DNA of 34,213 nt from Candidatus Sulfotelmatobacter sp. (GTDB taxonomy: Bacteria; Eisenbacteria; RBG-16-71-46): positions 1-34,213 of the forward strand of contig DATKAB010000076.1 of assembly GCA_035498555.1 (NCBI GenBank), written 5' to 3'. Below the pieces are notes generated by a model that did not search any database, had not been told where the DNA came from, and worked only from the letters and a program-made list of their open reading frames with translations. The position numbers and the translations under genes are program-made. This document shows positions 3,855 through 30,109 of the stretch, piece by piece; the stretch's first letter is position 1, and every line of letters starts with the position of its first letter.

Positions 3855-6143
3855 CTACATCTCCCAGAGGTAGCTGAGCTTGGTGAAGACGCTGCTGCGC
3901 GCCGGCTGGAGCTTCTGCCCATCGACGCTGCTCTCGAGCAGCGAGCCGTAGCCGAGATAGACCACCGTGCCCGGCCGCACGTAGTAGCTGAACAGCACGT
4001 CGGGCGTCACCACCTGAGACTTGCTGGTCTCGAGATCCCTCGAGTCGAACTGCCGCACCGAAACCATCTGGGTGATGGTGCGCACCGCCAGCTCCTTGGT
4101 GAACTGGTAGGAGACTCGCACGCGCGGGATGAACTGTTCCGCGTAACGGCTGTTGTTTTGTTCGCGCCACACCGTGCTGGCCTGCACCTCGACCGAGCCG
4201 TCGAGCTGCGAGCTGAAACGCAGGTTGGCGCCGGCGTCCACTCGATAGTCGTGCCCGCGCGCCGCTTCCGAGAACACCACCTGATCGCCCCACACGTAGG
4301 TGACGAACGGCCGCACGCCACGCCAGCCGTCGGTGCCGGCATACACCGCGTGGCGGTAGAGGTCGGGAAAGGTGGCGTCGCCGATCCGGTAGTAGCGTTT
4401 GTTGTTCTCGGTGCCGAAGTAGGAGGCGCGCGGCAGATCGGCCTCGAAGATGAAGGAGAGCACATCGTCCTGGAGCGTCGTCCCCGCGTAGTTGTCGTAG
4501 CGGTCGTAGAACAGCATCGGGCGGATGTCGCTGTACCAGCCGCCGTCCCTGCCGAGGATGTGGGGGACGATGCCGGCCGCCTGGTGAAACACGTCGGTGC
4601 GGGTGATGAAGCCCATGTCGGCGGCGAAGTCGGGCGAGGTCCCGTCGGCGCCGAGCTGCAGCGTGAGGTGCTTGGTATCGCGCGAGAGCCTGCCATACCA
4701 CGCCTTCCCCGAGCGCATCTGGCCGGCGCGTGGGGCAATCGAGGGATCCAGCGCCGCCAGCTGCGCCGAATCGAGCTTCGCGATGCCGCTCGAGAAGTTC
4801 TGGTCGCGGCTCTGGCTTCCCACGCCCTGCCAGTCGAGCGTGTACTTCTGCGCCCACTTGAGGCGCCCGTCGAGACCCAAGCCGCGGTTGTACCGATCGC
4901 CCTGGGTGCGATCTCCCGCCAGCAGGCCGACGTAGGAATTCCTGAACACGTCCTGCCGCAGCCGGACGATGTTGTAGCGGGCGTTCTCGCCGAGATAGGG
5001 ATTCGCGAAGTTGGGGAGGGTCTCGATTCCGTCGCCGGCCGAGCGATCGTCCGCGCTCAGCACGCCCATCGAAGTGCGCCCCACCTTGCCCGTCAGCTTG
5101 ACGCCGTAGCGTGGATCGGCGATGCGCCGCGTGTACACGAGATCGACCGGCGTGGTGAAGATGTCCGCGCCCTCGAGAAAGAAGGGGCGCTTCTCGGGGA
5201 ACAAAGTGGCGTAGCGGGCGTTCACGTCCACCACGCCGGCGTCGGCCTCGACCTGGCTGAAATCGGGCGAGACCGTGACGTCGGCGACCAGATTGGTGGT
5301 GAGCCCGTACTTCACGCCCACGCCGAAGCGGCCGGTCGGGTCGCCGTAGGTCATCTGTTCGCCGTCACGCACCGCGGTGGCGGTCGCGGTCTGCTCGGGG
5401 ATCACCTGCAGATTGCGCCCGGGACGCACGCCGTTCAGGTCTTCCAGCGCCCCGAGCTGCGTGAAATAGCTGTTGATGTTGCGCGTCACCGGCGCCCAGT
5501 AGGTGTGAGTGCCCGAGCGCTTGATGTCGCGGATCGCCTGAAAACCGAAGGTGACCCGATCCCCGGGCATGAACCGCAGCGTCTTGAAAGGCACCGCCAT
5601 TTCGACTTCGTAGCCGCGATCGGTCATGCGACCGCGCGACGTGTACTGGAAGTCGGGCGCCATGTCGGTGTTCTGCCCTTCCTGGTCCACGCCGTCCATC
5701 TGGATGCCATTCGGGCTGGAGCACAGGAAGAACGCCTTCTGCTTGTCGTTGTAGGCGTCGATCGAGACGCCGACCCAGTCGCCCTGACCGATCTGATCGC
5801 GTGGCACCACCGGCGCCTGCACCTGCCTGGGGTCGTCCAACGCGCGAAAGCCGATGTAGAGATTCTGATCGTCGTACATGACGTAGGCGACGGTGCCGAG
5901 CGTGTCGCGCACGCCTTCGACCGGGCGGATGTTGGTGAACGAATCGAGCACCGCCGCCATCGCCCACACCGAATCGTCGAGCGCACCGTCGAGCTTCGGG
6001 CCCTGCTCGACGTGCGGGGGCGAGAGGCGAATCTGCCGCGCGGCTCCCGAAAAATGCTGCCCATAGTCCGCACGCGCCGCGCCCGAGATCAGCAGCAGGA
6101 GCGCGACGAGAGAGTTGGGCCAGGTCTTGAGGCGGAGGGGCAA
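3855..6143 (-). CDS. CBM9-like / DUF5916 outer-membrane beta-barrel protein (762 aa)
   Basis: Exported protein with a Sec signal peptide (positively charged start, LVALLLLISG core, likely cut after AARA at residue 25). A carbohydrate-binding-module-9-like domain spans about residues 40-225 (PKLDGALDDSVWAMA, LYIGFRALDD, YEVEMAVPFKTLRF). A long DUF5916 region rich in alternating barrel strands runs to the end, with the family block SQVEADAGVVDVNARYATLF followed by PEKRPFFLEGADIF. The likely role is an outer-membrane protein that binds or passes a glycan or other ligand; the substrate is unknown. The start is TTG at 6143, supported by a GAGGA ribosome site 5 nt upstream. The next in-frame Met falls after the signal peptide. 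The gene is divergent from the GH63 glucosidase, which suggests carbohydrate use. Confidence 0.85.
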   Translation of the reverse strand: MPLRLKTWPNSLVALLLLISGAARADYGQHFSGAARQIRLSPPHVEQGPKLDGALDDSVWAMAAVLDSFTNIRPVEGVRDTLGTVAYVMYDDQNLYIGFRALDDPRQVQAPVVPRDQIGQGDWVGVSIDAYNDKQKAFFLCSSPNGIQMDGVDQEGQNTDMAPDFQYTSRGRMTDRGYEVEMAVPFKTLRFMPGDRVTFGFQAIRDIKRSGTHTYWAPVTRNINSYFTQLGALEDLNGVRPGRNLQVIPEQTATATAVRDGEQMTYGDPTGRFGVGVKYGLTTNLVADVTVSPDFSQVEADAGVVDVNARYATLFPEKRPFFLEGADIFTTPVDLVYTRRIADPRYGVKLTGKVGRTSMGVLSADDRSAGDGIETLPNFANPYLGENARYNIVRLRQDVFRNSYVGLLAGDRTQGDRYNRGLGLDGRLKWAQKYTLDWQGVGSQSRDQNFSSGIAKLDSAQLAALDPSIAPRAGQMRSGKAWYGRLSRDTKHLTLQLGADGTSPDFAADMGFITRTDVFHQAAGIVPHILGRDGGWYSDIRPMLFYDRYDNYAGTTLQDDVLSFIFEADLPRASYFGTENNKRYYRIGDATFPDLYRHAVYAGTDGWRGVRPFVTYVWGDQVVFSEAARGHDYRVDAGANLRFSSQLDGSVEVQASTVWREQNNSRYAEQFIPRVRVSYQFTKELAVRTITQMVSVRQFDSRDLETSKSQVVTPDVLFSYYVRPGTVVYLGYGSLLESSVDGQKLQPARSSVFTKLSYLWEM

Positions 6144-24790: not shown

Positions 24791-25366
24791 ATGAACCGCC
24801 CGCGAAGTTCCCTCGCACGAATGATCCTGTGGAGGCTGGCCGCCGGACTGACCCTCTTCCTCGCGTCGTTGTGGGTCGGCGTGGAGCTCGCCCGGGCGGG
24901 CGAGATCGTCCCCGCGATTGGCGTCTCGCGAACGCTCGACGGAGACGAACCGAGCCGCACGTTCGCGAGCCTCGCCATTCGCGGCGATCTGCTGCCCTTG
25001 CTGCAGGCCGAAGTCGGGGTGGGCTATCACAGCGAGGACGTCCTCGATCAAGAGCTCGAAGTTCGGATGTGGCCGGTGACGGCCTCGCTCTGGCTCACGC
25101 CGCTTCCGGCCCTCTACGCCGGCGGCGGCGTTGGCTGGTACCACACCACCTTTGACTACGCCTCCGGGGTTCCGCTCTCCGACGAGACGCGCGAGAACTA
25201 CGGCGTTCATCTCGGCGGCGGGCTCAAGGTGCCCCTGGGCGGGGCGGCGGCCGTGGACCTGGGCGGGCGCTACGTGATGCTGCGTCCTCAGGAGAGTCCG
25301 CTCATCCCGCAGCACTTCGATCCGGATTTCTGGACGACGACGCTGGGGCTGGCGATCCGCTTCTAG
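24791..25366 (+). CDS. Small outer-membrane beta-barrel protein (191 aa)
   Basis: Exported protein with a long signal peptide (MNRPRSSLARMILWRLAAG, hydrophobic LTLFLASLWVGVELA, likely cut after ARA at residue 36). The mature part is about 155 residues of alternating strands (FASLAIRGDLLPLLQAEVGV, LYAGGGVGWYHTTFDY, YGVHLGGGLKVPLG) and ends GLAIRF. A terminal Phe is the signature recognised by the BAM machinery. It resembles OmpA/OmpW-like 8-stranded barrels (PF13505 type). Pore or structural function cannot be told. GGAGG lies 6 nt before the ATG. Its stop overlaps that of the converging hybrid kinase (CTAG at 25363-25366). Confidence 0.82.
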   Translation: MNRPRSSLARMILWRLAAGLTLFLASLWVGVELARAGEIVPAIGVSRTLDGDEPSRTFASLAIRGDLLPLLQAEVGVGYHSEDVLDQELEVRMWPVTASLWLTPLPALYAGGGVGWYHTTFDYASGVPLSDETRENYGVHLGGGLKVPLGGAAAVDLGGRYVMLRPQESPLIPQHFDPDFWTTTLGLAIRF

Positions 25367-27468
25367 GTTTCGCTCTCGATCAGACGTTTGAGCGTCGGCG
25401 GGTGGACGGGCTTGGTCAGGTGGTGATCGAAGCCCGCGTCCACCGCCCGGCGGCGATCCTCGCTCTGGCCGAAGCCGGTGAGCGCGATCAGGGTCATGCC
25501 GGGCGCGGGGCTTTCGCGCCGCAATCGCTCCGCGACTTCGTAGCCGTCCATGCCGGGGAGCCCGATGTCGAGCAGCACCACCTCGGGCCGCGAGGCTTCG
25601 GCGCGAGCCACCGCTTCCCGTCCATCGTGGGCGAGCTGCACGTCGTGCCCCCACAGCCTCAGCAGATCGGCCAGGGTCTCGGCCGAGTCGCGATTGTCGT
25701 CCACCACCAGCACGCGGCGCGCCACCCGGGCGTCGTCGTGCCGCGCGGCTTCGACGCTCACCACGCGCGGCGGCTCGATCCGCGGCAGGCGCAGCGTGAA
25801 CGTGCTGCCCTTGCCGATCCCGGGGCTCGAGGCGCGAATGCTGCCGCCGTGCATCTCGACCAGGCGCGAGACCAGCGACAACCCGATCCCGAGTCCGCCG
25901 TGGCCGCGCGTGATCGACGGGTCCACCTGCGTGAACGGATCGAAAATCCGCTCCAGCATGTCCGCGGGGATGCCCGCGCCGGTGTCGATCACCCGCACCA
26001 GCGCGTCGCGGCCATCCTGGGACAGCGCCAGCGTGATGCGTCCGCCAGCGGGCGTGTACTTGATGGCGTTGTTGAGGAGATTGGCGACGATCTGCGCGAG
26101 GCGGATGCGATCGCCGTCCACCCAGACGGTCGAGCCGGGGAGCGACAGCGCCAGCTCGACGCGCTGCGCATTCGCCCGCGAACGGAAGTCCTCGACCGCC
26201 TCGCCCAGGATCTCGGTGAGGCTCACCGGCTCGCGGTGAAGCGTGATCTTGCCCTGATTGATGCGCGAGACGTCGAGCAGGTCGTCCACCAGCCGGGTCA
26301 TGTTGTCCACCTGGCGCTTCATCATCGCGTGAGTCAGGCGGACATCGGTGGGCATCTCGGGTGCCCGTGATTCGAGCACGTACAGCGCGTTGCTGAGCGG
26401 CGCGAGCGGATTGCGCAGCTCGTGCCCGAGCACGCCGAGGAATTCGTCCTTGCGCTCGTGCATCACGGTGAGCGAGCCCATGCGCTCGCGCAGCGTTTTC
26501 TCATAGCGCACGATGCTCTGGCCGACCGGCAGCGCGGTCAGTCCGCCGATCAGGATGCCGGCGATCAACAGCACCAGCACCGCGATCATGCTGGCGCGGA
26601 TCGAGTAGCGCGCTCCCTGCGCGGCCTCGGCCAGGTCGGTGCGCGTGACGCCGTGAATGCCCTGGTCCACCACGTGCTCGAGCTGATTGGCGAGCGCGGC
26701 GTAGCGGGCGAGCGCGATGCGGAGCCGATCACGATCGTCGAGGCAGTCGTGGGCCGCGGCGACCTGGTCCGCGAAGGCGGCCCGGAAGCGCTGGAAGCCC
26801 GGGCGCTCGCTCTCGGAGAGCCGGAGGTCGCCGAGGTCGGCCAGCGCGCGGCGCGTGTCTTCGGCCAGCGCGCCGACGCGTGCCCGCTCATCGGGGTCGT
26901 GGGTCGCCCGGTAGAGTCCGACCGCGGCCGCCACGCCATTGAGGTTCGCCGCCAGCTGATTGGCGAGCGCCTGCTTGCGCGGCCCGTTCCTGTGAGTGTC
27001 GAGCTTCGCCAGGACGTCGCGATTGAGGATCAAGCGGGTGCCTGCGGTCGCCCGTCCAAAGCGCGCGATGCCGGCGCGCTCGATGTCGCTCAACGCCATG
27101 AGCGAGTCGCCCACCAGATGGATCTCGTCCTGGCGTGCCTGGATCTCGCGGCCGAGCTCGAGCGTGGCGCGCGACTGCGCCACCTGCTCGTAGTGCTGGA
27201 TCATGCGATCGAGCACCACGCGATTGGCGGCGATCTTGGCGCGGTGAGAGGTCTCGCCGTCGCCGACGTAGGCCAGCAGCGCCGCGCGCGAGCCGCTCAC
27301 GTTGAGCGCCATCTCGTAGGCAATGGCGCTGGCCGGCTCCTGCACCGCCATGATCGTCGAGAGGGCCCGCTCGATCGAGGCGAGGCGGTGAGCGACGAAC
27401 AGACCGATGCCGACCAGGAACAGCATCAGGAGGCCGAAACCGAGCCAGAGTTTGCCCGCAGTGCTCAT
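25363..27468 (-). CDS. Hybrid sensor histidine kinase with C-terminal receiver (701 aa)
   Basis: Membrane sensor with phosphorelay output. Helix 1 (about 8-28) and helix 2 (about 293-313) bracket about 265 residues of extracytoplasmic helical sensor, similar to four-helix-bundle chemoreceptor-type domains. The dimerisation domain has VLGHELRNPLAPLSN with His349. The ATPase has the N-box IVANLLNNAIKYTPAG, G1 VIDTGAGIP and G2 GHGGLGIGLSLV. A receiver follows from about 584, with acidic pocket VVDDN and acceptor Asp634 (VVLLDIGLPGMDG). No Hpt domain is fused, so phosphate should leave through a separate phosphotransferase. The divergent neighbour at 27578 is a candidate. A TATACT box lies 9 nt before the ATG. 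Confidence 0.93.
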   Translation of the reverse strand: MSTAGKLWLGFGLLMLFLVGIGLFVAHRLASIERALSTIMAVQEPASAIAYEMALNVSGSRAALLAYVGDGETSHRAKIAANRVVLDRMIQHYEQVAQSRATLELGREIQARQDEIHLVGDSLMALSDIERAGIARFGRATAGTRLILNRDVLAKLDTHRNGPRKQALANQLAANLNGVAAAVGLYRATHDPDERARVGALAEDTRRALADLGDLRLSESERPGFQRFRAAFADQVAAAHDCLDDRDRLRIALARYAALANQLEHVVDQGIHGVTRTDLAEAAQGARYSIRASMIAVLVLLIAGILIGGLTALPVGQSIVRYEKTLRERMGSLTVMHERKDEFLGVLGHELRNPLAPLSNALYVLESRAPEMPTDVRLTHAMMKRQVDNMTRLVDDLLDVSRINQGKITLHREPVSLTEILGEAVEDFRSRANAQRVELALSLPGSTVWVDGDRIRLAQIVANLLNNAIKYTPAGGRITLALSQDGRDALVRVIDTGAGIPADMLERIFDPFTQVDPSITRGHGGLGIGLSLVSRLVEMHGGSIRASSPGIGKGSTFTLRLPRIEPPRVVSVEAARHDDARVARRVLVVDDNRDSAETLADLLRLWGHDVQLAHDGREAVARAEASRPEVVLLDIGLPGMDGYEVAERLRRESPAPGMTLIALTGFGQSEDRRRAVDAGFDHHLTKPVHPPTLKRLIESET

Positions 27469-27577: not shown

Positions 27578-28216
27578 TTGGCTGACGAGAGTCTCCGCCG
27601 GGCCTGCTATCTGGCGGCGCTATCACGGCTCCAGCGCGGTCTCGCGCACGATGCCCGCTCGCACCTCGGCAGCATCGCGCTCCAGTTCGAGCTGATCGGC
27701 GAGCTGCTCGAGCGCGAGAGCCCGCCGGGCGAGGGGCTCGCGCGTCGCCTGAAGCCGGCGGTCGAGCGCGGGCGCGCCGGGCTCGAGCGCGCGCGCCGCG
27801 ACTTCGAGCTGGCGATCGGCACGCTGGCGCCGCCGGCCGGCGAGGTGCTCGATCTCGGCGCCTGTCTCGCCGAGCTCGAGGCGCTGATCGCGGCCGGCGC
27901 GGCCGACCGCCCGGTCCGCTGGCCGGCCGAGCCGGGGGCCTCGCCGGCGCTGCGCGTCGCGCACCCGGCGATCGCGCGCGAGGCGCTTTCGATCGCGGCC
28001 ATCGAGATGACCTTCGCGAATCCGCCGGGCGGGCCGCTCGAGGTGTCGCTGGATTCGAGCCGGGCCCAGGCGCGCGTGAGCTTCGCTGGCGCGATGCCCC
28101 CGCACGACGCGCGCTGGCGGCGAGCGGTCGAGGAATCGCTGGCCTCGCTGGGCGGATCGGTGCGCGACGGCGAGGCGCGGCTGGAACTGGTATTCCCGCT
28201 GCTTCCCATGGACTGA
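27578..28216 (+). CDS. Degenerate histidine-kinase-like protein, possible phosphotransferase (212 aa)
   Basis: No confident family match. The first part is helical with LAHDARSHLGSIALQFELIG, which resembles a kinase dimerisation helix around His24 (compare H-D/E-x-R/N-x-x-L). A second amphipathic helix follows at about 50-80. The remaining 110 residues look like a shrunken ATPase fold ending LGGSVRDGEARLELVFPLLP, but N-box, G1 and G2 motifs are absent. This layout recalls ChpT/Spo0B-type phosphotransferases. Start choice: TTG at 27578 has GGGAGGAAGG directly upstream, while the GTG at 27563 has none. It lies 7 nt before an NtrC-type regulator and is divergent from a hybrid kinase, so a phosphorelay link is plausible. 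Confidence 0.6.
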   Translation: MADESLRRACYLAALSRLQRGLAHDARSHLGSIALQFELIGELLERESPPGEGLARRLKPAVERGRAGLERARRDFELAIGTLAPPAGEVLDLGACLAELEALIAAGAADRPVRWPAEPGASPALRVAHPAIAREALSIAAIEMTFANPPGGPLEVSLDSSRAQARVSFAGAMPPHDARWRRAVEESLASLGGSVRDGEARLELVFPLLPMD

Positions 28217-28223
28217 GGCCGCC

Positions 28224-29618
28224 ATGCCCCTCGCCCTGATCGTTGAAGACGACGCCGATGCACTGGCCACGCTTGCCGAGCTGGTGGAGCTCGAAGGCTT
28301 CGAGATCGCGAGAGCCGCCAGTCTGCGCGAGGCGCTCCAGCGGCTCGCCGAGCGATCACCCGACGTCGTGATCACCGATCTCATGCTTCCCGACGGCAGC
28401 GGGCTCGAGCTGCTCGACCACGAGTATCCGGCGGCTCGACCGCAGATCGTGCTGGTCACCGGCAACGCCTCGAAGGATTCCGCGATCGAGGCGGTGAGAA
28501 AGGGCGCCAAGGACTATCTGGAGAAGTCGAAGGACGAGGGCCGGCTCAAGGTGGTGCTCGCCAACGTGCGCCGCGAGCTGGCCGACCAGCGCGAGATCCG
28601 CCAGCTGCGCGGCGCGCTGCGCGAGCACGGTCAGTTCCATCAACTGATCGGGGCTTCGGCGGCGATGCAGCGCGTCTACGACCTGATCGAGCGTGTGGCC
28701 CCGACTCAGGCGGCGGTGCTGATCACCGGCGAGAGCGGTACCGGCAAGGAACTGGTGGCCCTGACCGTTCACGAGCTGAGCCCGCGACGCGAGGCCGAGT
28801 TCGTCGCCGTCAATTGCAGCGCGGTGCCGGCCAATCTGTTCGAGAGCGAGCTGTTCGGCCACGAGCGCGGCAGCTTCACCGGCGCGACCCAGCAGCACCG
28901 CGGGCTGTTCGAGCGCGCCTCGGGAGGGACGCTGTTCCTCGACGAGATCACCGAGATGCCGATCGAGCTCCAGCCCAAGCTGCTGCGCGCGCTCGAATCG
29001 GGCGAAGTGACGAGAATTGGCGCCGAGCAACCTCTGCGCGTGGATGTGCGGGTGATCGCCGCGTCCAACCGCCCGCCCGAGGCCGCGATCCGCGACGGGC
29101 GGCTGCGCGAGGATCTCTTCTATCGGCTGAACGTCTTTCCCATCGAGCTGCCTCCGCTGCGCGATCGCGGAGACGATGCGCGGTTGCTCGCCGAGCACTT
29201 TCTCGCCGAGATCAATCGCGCCGAGGGATCGAACAAGCGCCTCGCAGCGGGCATTCGGGAGCGGCTCACCGCGCACGCGTGGCCGGGCAACGTGCGGGAG
29301 TTGAAGAACGCGCTGCACCGCGCGTACATCCTGTCGCGGGCCGATGTGGACCTGGAGCTCAGCCGCCCGAGCATCGCCGGAACGCCCCCGGCCCCGGGCG
29401 GTGATGGCGCGGCGTCGGCCGGCATTCCGGTCGGCCTCACGCTCGAGGAGATCGAGCGCCGCATGATCGTCGCCACCCTCGAGCACACCGGGGGCGACAA
29501 GCGCGAGGCCGCCCGGATGCTCGGCATCAGTCTCAAGACTCTCTACAACCGCCTCAATGTCTATGCGGCCGCCGAGCGCGGCGCGCCGGCCGCGCCCCCC
29601 GAGGCCCCCGGCGCCTGA
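28224..29618 (+). CDS. Sigma54-dependent NtrC-family response regulator, GSFTGA variant (464 aa)
   Basis: Second sigma54 activator of the window. The receiver has Asp9-Asp10, acceptor Asp52 ([13 protein letters not shown]) and Lys101. The AAA+ domain has Walker A GESGTGKE (169-176), GSFTGA (216-221), Walker B LFLDEI with Asp240-Glu241, then [16 protein letters not shown] and [21 protein letters not shown] Fis-type helix-turn-helix ends [20 protein letters not shown]. The sigma54 loop has Ser for the common Ala, a tolerated variant. A GAGG overlapping the previous stop region sits 5 nt before the ATG. It probably forms an operon with the degenerate kinase-like gene. Likely inputs are that protein and the hybrid kinase. 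Confidence 0.95.
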
Positions 29619-29640
29619 AGCCGTCGCTGTAGCCGGTACA

Positions 29641-29655
29641 AACGGGAACCCCGTT
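29641..29655. promoter_or_regulatory. Dyad after the second NtrC gene: terminator or activator site
   Basis: AACGGG-AAC-CCCGTT is a perfect 6-bp dyad, with GGAAC-CCC-GTTCC nested in it. It is 22 nt past the regulator stop. It also sits about 95-110 nt upstream of the start predicted from the sigma54-like motif at 29724. It could be a weak terminator or an enhancer site. Confidence 0.3.
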
Positions 29656-29723
29656 CCTACATCGCCGCCGGGCACCCGCGGCTCCGCGCCGTGAATTCCA
29701 GTCACTTGCGCGCTCCGGCGGGC

Positions 29724-29739
29724 TGGCATGGCCACTGCA
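29724..29739 (+). promoter_or_regulatory. Sigma54-like -24/-12 promoter upstream of the DUF5670 gene
   Basis: TGGCATGGCCACTGCA keeps GG and GC with exactly 10 nt between. It differs from TGGCACG-N4-TTGCA only at two less critical positions. Transcription would start near 29750, giving a leader of about 130 nt. The gene immediately upstream encodes a sigma54 activator. Confidence 0.5.
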
Positions 29740-29816
29740 GGAGCGAGCCGCGGCGCTTCGGCCGGCCGGCGATATCGAGGGGATAAGCCAGACCGACGAA
29801 GCTCCACGAACGGGGA

Positions 29817-29856
29817 TCCGGGACCGATGCCAACGGCGAGCGGCGGAGGTCCCGGA
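29817..29856 (+). other. Leader hairpin before the DUF5670 gene
   Basis: TCCGGGAC (29817-29824) pairs with GTCCCGGA (29849-29856) around a 24-nt loop. The stem ends 9 nt before the GGAGG ribosome site (29866-29870), so it could affect translation. The rest of 29619-29878 holds no convincing gene. Confidence 0.4.
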
Positions 29857-29878
29857 GAACCACCCGGAGGTGAGAGAG

Positions 29879-30037
29879 ATGTGGAGATTGATCGGGCTCC
29901 TCCTCCTCGTCACGTGGCTGATGGGGCTCGCCACCGGCTATGTCCTCGGGGGCTGGATCCACCTGTTTGCAGCGCTGGCGCTCGTGCTGCTCTTCACCCC
30001 GGGGCTGCATCGCCCGCGCGAGCGCCATACCAGCTAG
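29879..30037 (+). CDS. Small two-helix membrane protein, lmo0937/DUF5670 family (52 aa)
   Basis: A short gene easily missed by length cut-offs. The protein reads MWRLIGLLLLVTWLMGLATG, then YVLGGWIHLFAALALVLLF and a basic tail ending RPRERHTS. This W-x-LG-L-x-T-x-Y-x-x-GG-x-IH pattern is that of the lmo0937/DUF5670 family of about 50-residue membrane proteins. Two helices are expected, with the GG-x-IH turn between them. Their function is unknown; they are often linked with stress conditions. GGAGG lies 8 nt before the ATG. A sigma54-like promoter and a leader hairpin stand upstream and a very strong hairpin follows, so it looks like its own transcription unit. Confidence 0.85.
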   Translation: MWRLIGLLLLVTWLMGLATGYVLGGWIHLFAALALVLLFTPGLHRPRERHTS

Positions 30038-30044
30038 AGAGTCC

Positions 30045-30109
30045 GGGGGCGCAGAGGAAGACGGGAATCACGGCGGCGGAGTGATGGGATTCCCGTGCCC
30101 TGCGCCCCC
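30045..30109 (+). terminator. Long two-part hairpin after the DUF5670 gene
   Basis: GGGGGCGCAG (30045-30054) pairs with CTGCGCCCCC (30100-30109). Inside it, ACGGGAATC (30061-30069) pairs with GATTCCCGT (30088-30096). The structure starts 7 nt after the stop. Only two T residues follow, but the stem is the strongest in the window. Confidence 0.65.

Follow-up and report, generated by a model that had tools for sequence, protein, structure and literature searches.

In the PrsK/PrsR-RpoN systems, which control PEP-CTERM genes (Haft 2006, PMC1569441; Aquincola pepA, PMC9850573), an activator motif ending in TTTACA is followed by a spacer of approximately 63 nt and then by a sigma-54 site. ChpT and PhyT of the Alphaproteobacteria (PMC9981736, PMC5898713) are kinase-derived proteins in which a phospho-acceptor histidine hands phosphate to a regulator. 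Proteins of the DUF5670/lmo0937 type are widespread across phyla and have no known function. Listeria lmo0937 is stress-regulated, with a sigma-B effect of about 54-fold (PMC2813243; also PMC7690807), and is also listed as PrfA-regulated (PMC2679221). DUF5670 is unmentioned in the open literature searched, and lmo0937 is mentioned in few papers there, those consulted being Listeria expression and sRNA studies.

Here we describe a locus of a Candidatus Eisenbacteria genome in which a small gene of this type follows an NtrC-type regulator gene. The window, by which we mean the whole 34,213-nucleotide stretch that was analysed, places the small gene behind a palindrome and a predicted sigma-54 promoter. 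It is very probable that the neighbouring regulator, when phosphorylated, binds the palindrome and activates sigma-54 transcription of the small gene as a single-gene unit.

The small gene and its signalling neighbours

The open reading frame (29879-30037, plus strand) starts with ATG at 29879 and its stop ends at 30037, giving 52 codons as the first-pass annotation of this DNA had reported. A GGAGG ribosome binding site is placed at 29866-29870 on the same strand. The product, MWRLIGLLLLVTWLMGLATGYVLGGWIHLFAALALVLLFTPGLHRPRERHTS, is a hydrophobic small membrane protein and a borderline member of the DUF5670 (lmo0937-like) group. It scores 22.6 bits (E 1.2e-4) against Pfam DUF5670 (PF18919), just under the cut-off of 23.5, and 19.3 bits against NCBIfam lmo0937_fam_TM (NF033488), for which the equivalog cut-off is 30. 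Since both scores fall below the cut-offs the protein is best regarded as a divergent relative of DUF5670 and not a clean member. The DUF5670 core W-x2-G ... GG-x-I-H ... A is present, with W13, G16, G24, G25, H28 and A34 invariant across 24 sequences, this one included. The C-terminus is TPGLHRPRERHTS and the usual IRVIQGRR-type tail is absent. Hydrophobicity extends to about residue 41, and the structure model consists of a single long helix, residues 2-39, with a mean pLDDT of 87 and a pTM of just 0.40. A search for close relatives using the small protein alone returned no matches.

The adjacent upstream gene (28224-29618, plus strand) encodes a response regulator of the NtrC type, with a receiver, an AAA+ sigma-54 interaction domain and a Fis-type HTH (Pfam Response_reg 76, Sigma54_activat 234 and HTH_8 56 bits). 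Its sequence contains GSFTGA and a further stretch of ten residues (not shown). With this complete domain set the neighbour is the sigma-54 activator that had been suggested. The PrsR model (TIGR02915) scores 353.7 against a cut-off of 502.6, and assignment of the regulator as PrsR, NtrC or AtoC was rejected because the equivalog cut-offs are missed. The 20 tested Eisenbacteria regulators group together with one from Vicinamibacteria (L071) in a clade with 99/96 support. L071 was the one Acidobacteriota regulator of this clade placed in the tree; the others give scores of 460-522 bits when compared with the regulator of the window.

Divergent from the regulator operon is a hybrid histidine kinase (25363-27468, minus strand) with HisKA, HATPase_c and C-terminal receiver domains in Pfam, the candidate sensor. 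A kinase of similar length (705 aa) occupies the same place in the nearest relative. The gene at 27578-28216 (plus strand; the longest ORF starts at GTG 27563) codes for a histidine-kinase-like protein, a candidate phosphotransfer protein, for which a Pfam search found no match and no ATPase domain. It aligns with kinase-like proteins encoded at the same place in relatives, and a histidine at residue 24 is invariant. One such relative displays HisKA at 48.9 bits with HATPase_c sub-threshold, and an HPTransfase match in a relative (E 0.002) is below the cut-off. Elsewhere among the orthologous loci the slot is filled either by a kinase of full length or by a kinase together with a single-domain regulator. 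Loss of the ATPase is graded, the domain being recognisable in some loci and degenerate in the window, and these proteins may represent a series from kinase to phosphotransferase. The retention of H24, the lack of a recognisable ATPase and the adjoining hybrid kinase with its receiver suggest a relay from hybrid kinase to histidine protein to regulator.

Promoter, palindrome and transcript hairpins

The predicted sigma-54 promoter, TGGCATGGCCACTGCA (29724-29739, plus strand), fits the pattern TGGCAYRNNNNYTGCW exactly, with the -24 GG and -12 GC correctly spaced. Counting 12 nt past the -12 C places the predicted transcription start at 29750. The score of 16.7 is the highest among the regions upstream of 26 window gene calls, the next being 12.2; as the matrix is approximate, written from a consensus, and the gene calls are home-made, individual sigma-54 scores and gene starts are rough. 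A sigma-54-like promoter starting near 29750 had been proposed at first pass, and both the exact consensus and the position agree with that proposal. An rpoN gene is found in the window genome, and no sigma-70-type promoters were found near the small gene. We infer that the small gene is sigma-54 dependent.

The pattern TGGCAYRNNNNYTGCW occurs at eight sites in the 3.8-Mb window genome (219 contigs) compared to ten for the reversed control, so the consensus hexamers carry little weight by themselves. Three of the eight (window, C81 and C203) immediately follow a co-oriented NtrC-type gene. That at C81 is the expected PilR-type/pilin promoter, an internal positive control: a PilR-like NtrC regulator gene is followed by TGGCATGCGCTCTGCA (G000:C81:52515-52530; L035, L135) and then by two tandem type IV pilin-like genes, and the locus reads as a PilR-RpoN-pilA unit in Eisenbacteria. 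At C203 (G000:C203:6039-6054; L040) the order is an NtrC-type gene, the sigma-54 site TGGCACACGGGCTGCA and a gene for a single-domain response regulator.

A 13-bp palindrome, TGTAGCCGGTACA (29628-29640), occupies part of the gap that separates the regulator stop (29618) from the promoter, with 83 bp between it and the -24 box. We propose this as the regulator binding site (UAS) on the grounds of its rarity in the genome and its retention before the sigma-54 sites of relatives. The first-pass annotation had a dyad at about -100, probably AACGGGAACCCCGTT (29641-29655); that element is not conserved, and the conserved dyad is TGTAGCCGGTACA, which had been overlooked. The 3.8-Mb genome has two copies of TGTA-N5-TACA, against eight of a control pattern, and the composite of palindrome and sigma-54 site occurs only at the small gene. 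The other copy (G000:C93:51594-51606; L198) precedes a polysaccharide-deacetylase-like gene by approximately 100 bp but has no sigma-54 site and is probably a chance occurrence. A second half-site, TACA (29658-29661, plus strand), follows the first at 21 bp, two turns. TACA recurs at +29 to +31 in six of 15 aligned sites, a number reached in none of 1000 shuffles. For activators of the NtrC type a pair of sites separated by two helical turns is usual.

The leader carries a hairpin (29817-29856, plus strand) with nine perfect pairs (29817-29825 with 29848-29856) and a loop of 22 nt, which ends 9 nt before GGAGG. An 8-bp hairpin had been described in this position; the stem is there, one pair longer, but its significance is modest and no conservation was seen. 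Is post-transcriptional control through the leader a main regulatory layer, as the first-pass title would suggest? A 9-bp stem adjoining the ribosome site, with a folding z of -2.5, would be in keeping with that, but an equally long stem arises in nine of 300 shuffles, an Rfam scan of the window gave no match, the leaders of relatives are different and mostly shorter, and in the predicted fold GGAGG lies outside any strong stem. We consider it highly improbable that such control is a main layer.

Beyond the stop codon are nested hairpins that lack a U run (30045-30109, plus strand), a possible transcript end, with stems at 30045-30054/30100-30109 and, within, 30061-30069/30088-30096. Only one of 300 shuffles equalled it. 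No U-run terminators were found near the small gene. The two-part closing hairpin noted earlier is indeed strong yet ordinary in this genome; two other genes of the window are followed by longer stems. The description of the unit as heavily controlled holds only in part, the leader stem being barely above chance and unshared by relatives and the 3' hairpin being of a common type.

Recurrence of the arrangement in relatives

The nearest regulator ortholog (L166, genome G007) shares 64% identity. It is followed by TGTAGGGCCTACA at the place of the palindrome and by TGGCATGGACACTGCG, whose offset from the end of the regulator is +107, compared to +106 in the window. When the two spacers are aligned, GCTGGCATGGNCACTGC stands out as a conserved island, the remainder having diverged. 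The gene behind this promoter is lipoprotein-like, not DUF5670. G007 does have an exact palindrome and a sigma-54 site scoring 15.2 before a DUF5670 gene, on a contig other than that of the regulator ortholog.

Two further Eisenbacteria loci (L121 and L126) place regulator orthologs beside DUF5670 genes with sigma-54 sites, the promoter of L126 being weak (score 7.8). In genomes G038 and G046 the distance between DUF5670 gene and regulator ortholog is 2.3-2.7 kb, and the DUF5670 gene forms part of a series of LigD-, DUF892-, YtxH- and YflT-type genes. We note that in one Eisenbacteria family (L121, L126, L167 and L168) the regulator ortholog is surrounded by DNA repair genes of the LigD type and stress genes of the DUF892, YtxH and YflT types. 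Sigma-54 scores of at least 12 were obtained for six of 15 Eisenbacteria DUF5670 genes, window included, as opposed to 25 of the 411 neighbouring genes (Fisher p = 3e-4); two DUF5670 genes scored later have no sigma-54 site, making the fraction 6/17. With up to two palindrome mismatches permitted, the regions around 20 Eisenbacteria regulator loci contain 15 composites, where block shuffles give 0-5 (mean 1.2).

Different genes take up the position after the regulator, namely DUF5670 in the window and in L203, a lipoprotein-like gene in L166 and an outer-membrane-like gene in L171 and L172. The remaining composites of regulator-bearing genomes are found in front of a lipoprotein/OmpA pair in G008 and of a hypothetical stress-like gene in G045. 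The theme common to these targets is the envelope, with which a general role proposed for sigma-54 (PMC3162934) agrees.

The variety of targets raises the question of whether the regulator drives the promoter with something else as its key target, be it the leader RNA, an EamA-type transporter gene reached by read-through (30126) or the operon itself through feedback, in which case the small protein would be incidental. In relatives the same promoter position does lead to a lipoprotein-like or outer-membrane-like gene, and the leader is long with a 9-bp hairpin. However, the nested hairpin separates the small gene from EamA, DUF5670 recurs as a target in unrelated contexts, and the leader hairpin exceeds chance only slightly. 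We judge this quite unlikely and retain the small gene as the target of the regulator.

The pairing extends to Acidobacteriota. Of 80 DUF5670 loci, drawn from a wide range of phyla, only L071 (Vicinamibacteria) shows the palindrome upstream, and there the neighbour is a divergent kinase-regulator operon with a regulator orthologous to that of the window; in this 6.8-Mb genome the composite is unique and located at the DUF5670 gene. Three more DUF5670 neighbours, with sigma-54 scores of 17.1-18.8, came from a search of 193 Vicinamibacteria-class genomes that started instead from the regulator and from which 13 further loci were retrieved. L202 has DUF5670 divergent from the regulator, with TGTAGAGTGTACA. 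L203 reproduces the order of the window exactly, with regulator, half palindrome TGTAG, TGGCACGGCTCTTGCT and DUF5670. In L207 DUF5670 is again divergent from the regulator and there is no clear palindrome. Six composites are present at 14 Acidobacteriota regulator loci, against 0-1 (about 0.4) in shuffles. The check proposed at first pass, whether DUF5670 genes sit beside NtrC-type regulators in other genomes, thus has a positive answer in two other Eisenbacteria and four Acidobacteriota genomes.

Universal sigma-54 control of DUF5670 was rejected, since a site is missing from most of these genes: eight of 80 score at least 12, against two on the other strand. Over all 47 genomes there are seven composites compared to nine for the control; a split made post hoc gives six against one in the 17 regulator-bearing genomes and one against eight elsewhere. 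A strict composite scan of the 193 Vicinamibacteria-class genomes adds little, because the control (14) exceeds the matches (five), a regulator ortholog is present in two of the four genomes with matches and one match lacks a credible sigma-54 site.

Two other loci are recorded here. An Acidobacteria contig (L054) has strong sigma-54 sites at 3982, 6708, 555 (minus) and 5963 (plus), with scores of 18.8, 18.5, 15.1 and 14.0. They precede stress-type genes (YtxH/DUF883-like, lipoprotein-like and DUF5670) near a more distant NtrC-type regulator, and may constitute a sigma-54 stress island. In Sulfuricurvum (L046, position 8672, minus) TGTAAACTCTACA is followed 96 bp further on by TGGAACGTATCTTGCT, possibly a similar promoter in Campylobacterota.

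Could the promoter-like site and the palindrome be coincidental, with the small gene transcribed from a different promoter or as part of the regulator operon? The excess of control over consensus sites in the window genome and a gap of merely 260 bp between regulator and small gene are compatible with this. Set against them are a palindrome-promoter pair unique in the genome, a block conserved in the nearest relative, the recurrence with DUF5670 in two phyla and a region in which no sigma-70-type promoter was found, and coincidence seems a very poor explanation. The recurrence of the regulator-DUF5670 pairing in distant bacteria makes the small protein a likely output of the sensor system. The earlier proposal that it is an effector of the neighbouring signalling system is supported by this recurrence together with the conserved palindrome that links regulator and promoter.

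An output need not be a stress effector. Small membrane proteins that are induced by a regulator and feed back on its kinase are known elsewhere, as with MgrB on PhoQ, and such precedents count towards the small protein being a membrane feedback partner of the sensor kinase. The genes for sensor, regulator and small protein also occur together in the window, L071 and L207. However, the proximal target of the regulator is not DUF5670 in L166, L171 or L172. As these targets differ, and the DUF5670 target of G007 is on another contig, DUF5670 is not a fixed partner of the regulator. We regard a feedback role as unlikely, though less so than the other alternatives considered. Most likely the small protein is an inner-membrane component of an envelope stress or general stress response; this proposal draws on the envelope theme of the targets and the requirement of Listeria lmo0937 for sigma-B.

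The proposed circuit and known systems

In the circuit that we favour the adjacent hybrid kinase would pass phosphate, probably via the kinase-like protein, to the regulator. The phosphorylated regulator would then occupy TGTAG-N3-CTACA and the second half-site two turns away, a binding site about 75-100 bp before the -24 box, from where its AAA+ domain would contact sigma-54 polymerase and switch on the small gene. The same regulator clade is predicted to drive other envelope genes in relatives, with a DUF5670-type protein as a recurrent target in two phyla.

A broader and more tentative reading, which we rate at somewhat under even, is of a cassette common to the two phyla. It would comprise a kinase, a phosphotransfer-type protein or full kinase, an NtrC-type regulator, TGTAG-N3-CTACA and a sigma-54 promoter, with one exchangeable slot, adjacent to it, for an envelope effector and with DUF5670 as a recurrent, possibly ancestral, occupant. 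If true, this would be the first defined circuit for a widespread family of small membrane proteins. The regulator, site and promoter offer a testable handle, as the signal of the sensor would tell the purpose of the small protein. In addition, with TGTAG-N3-CTACA the remaining targets of the regulator can be read from genome sequence in little-studied phyla, for which experimental work is scarce.

How does the locus compare with the systems already described? It shares the small-protein family with Listeria lmo0937, but control is by sigma-B there and probably by a sigma-54 activator here. Compared with ChpT and PhyT, the role of the window kinase-like protein is deduced from a degenerate sequence, and the protein would feed a sigma-54 activator. 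As in PilR-RpoN-pilA, which is also represented in the window genome, an envelope gene with a sigma-54 promoter comes after an NtrC-type regulator, although regulator clade and target differ from those of L135. On sequence grounds the locus would be a single-gene unit under an enhancer-dependent sigma-54 promoter, with the PrsR/PEP-CTERM arrangement (PMC1569441) as its closest counterpart. Both combine a regulator of the NtrC type with transcription units of one gene, long upstream regions, a sigma-54 site and envelope-directed products; the window differs in that its target is a small membrane protein and not a PEP-CTERM protein, its spacer is 73-100 bp and its regulator belongs to another clade.
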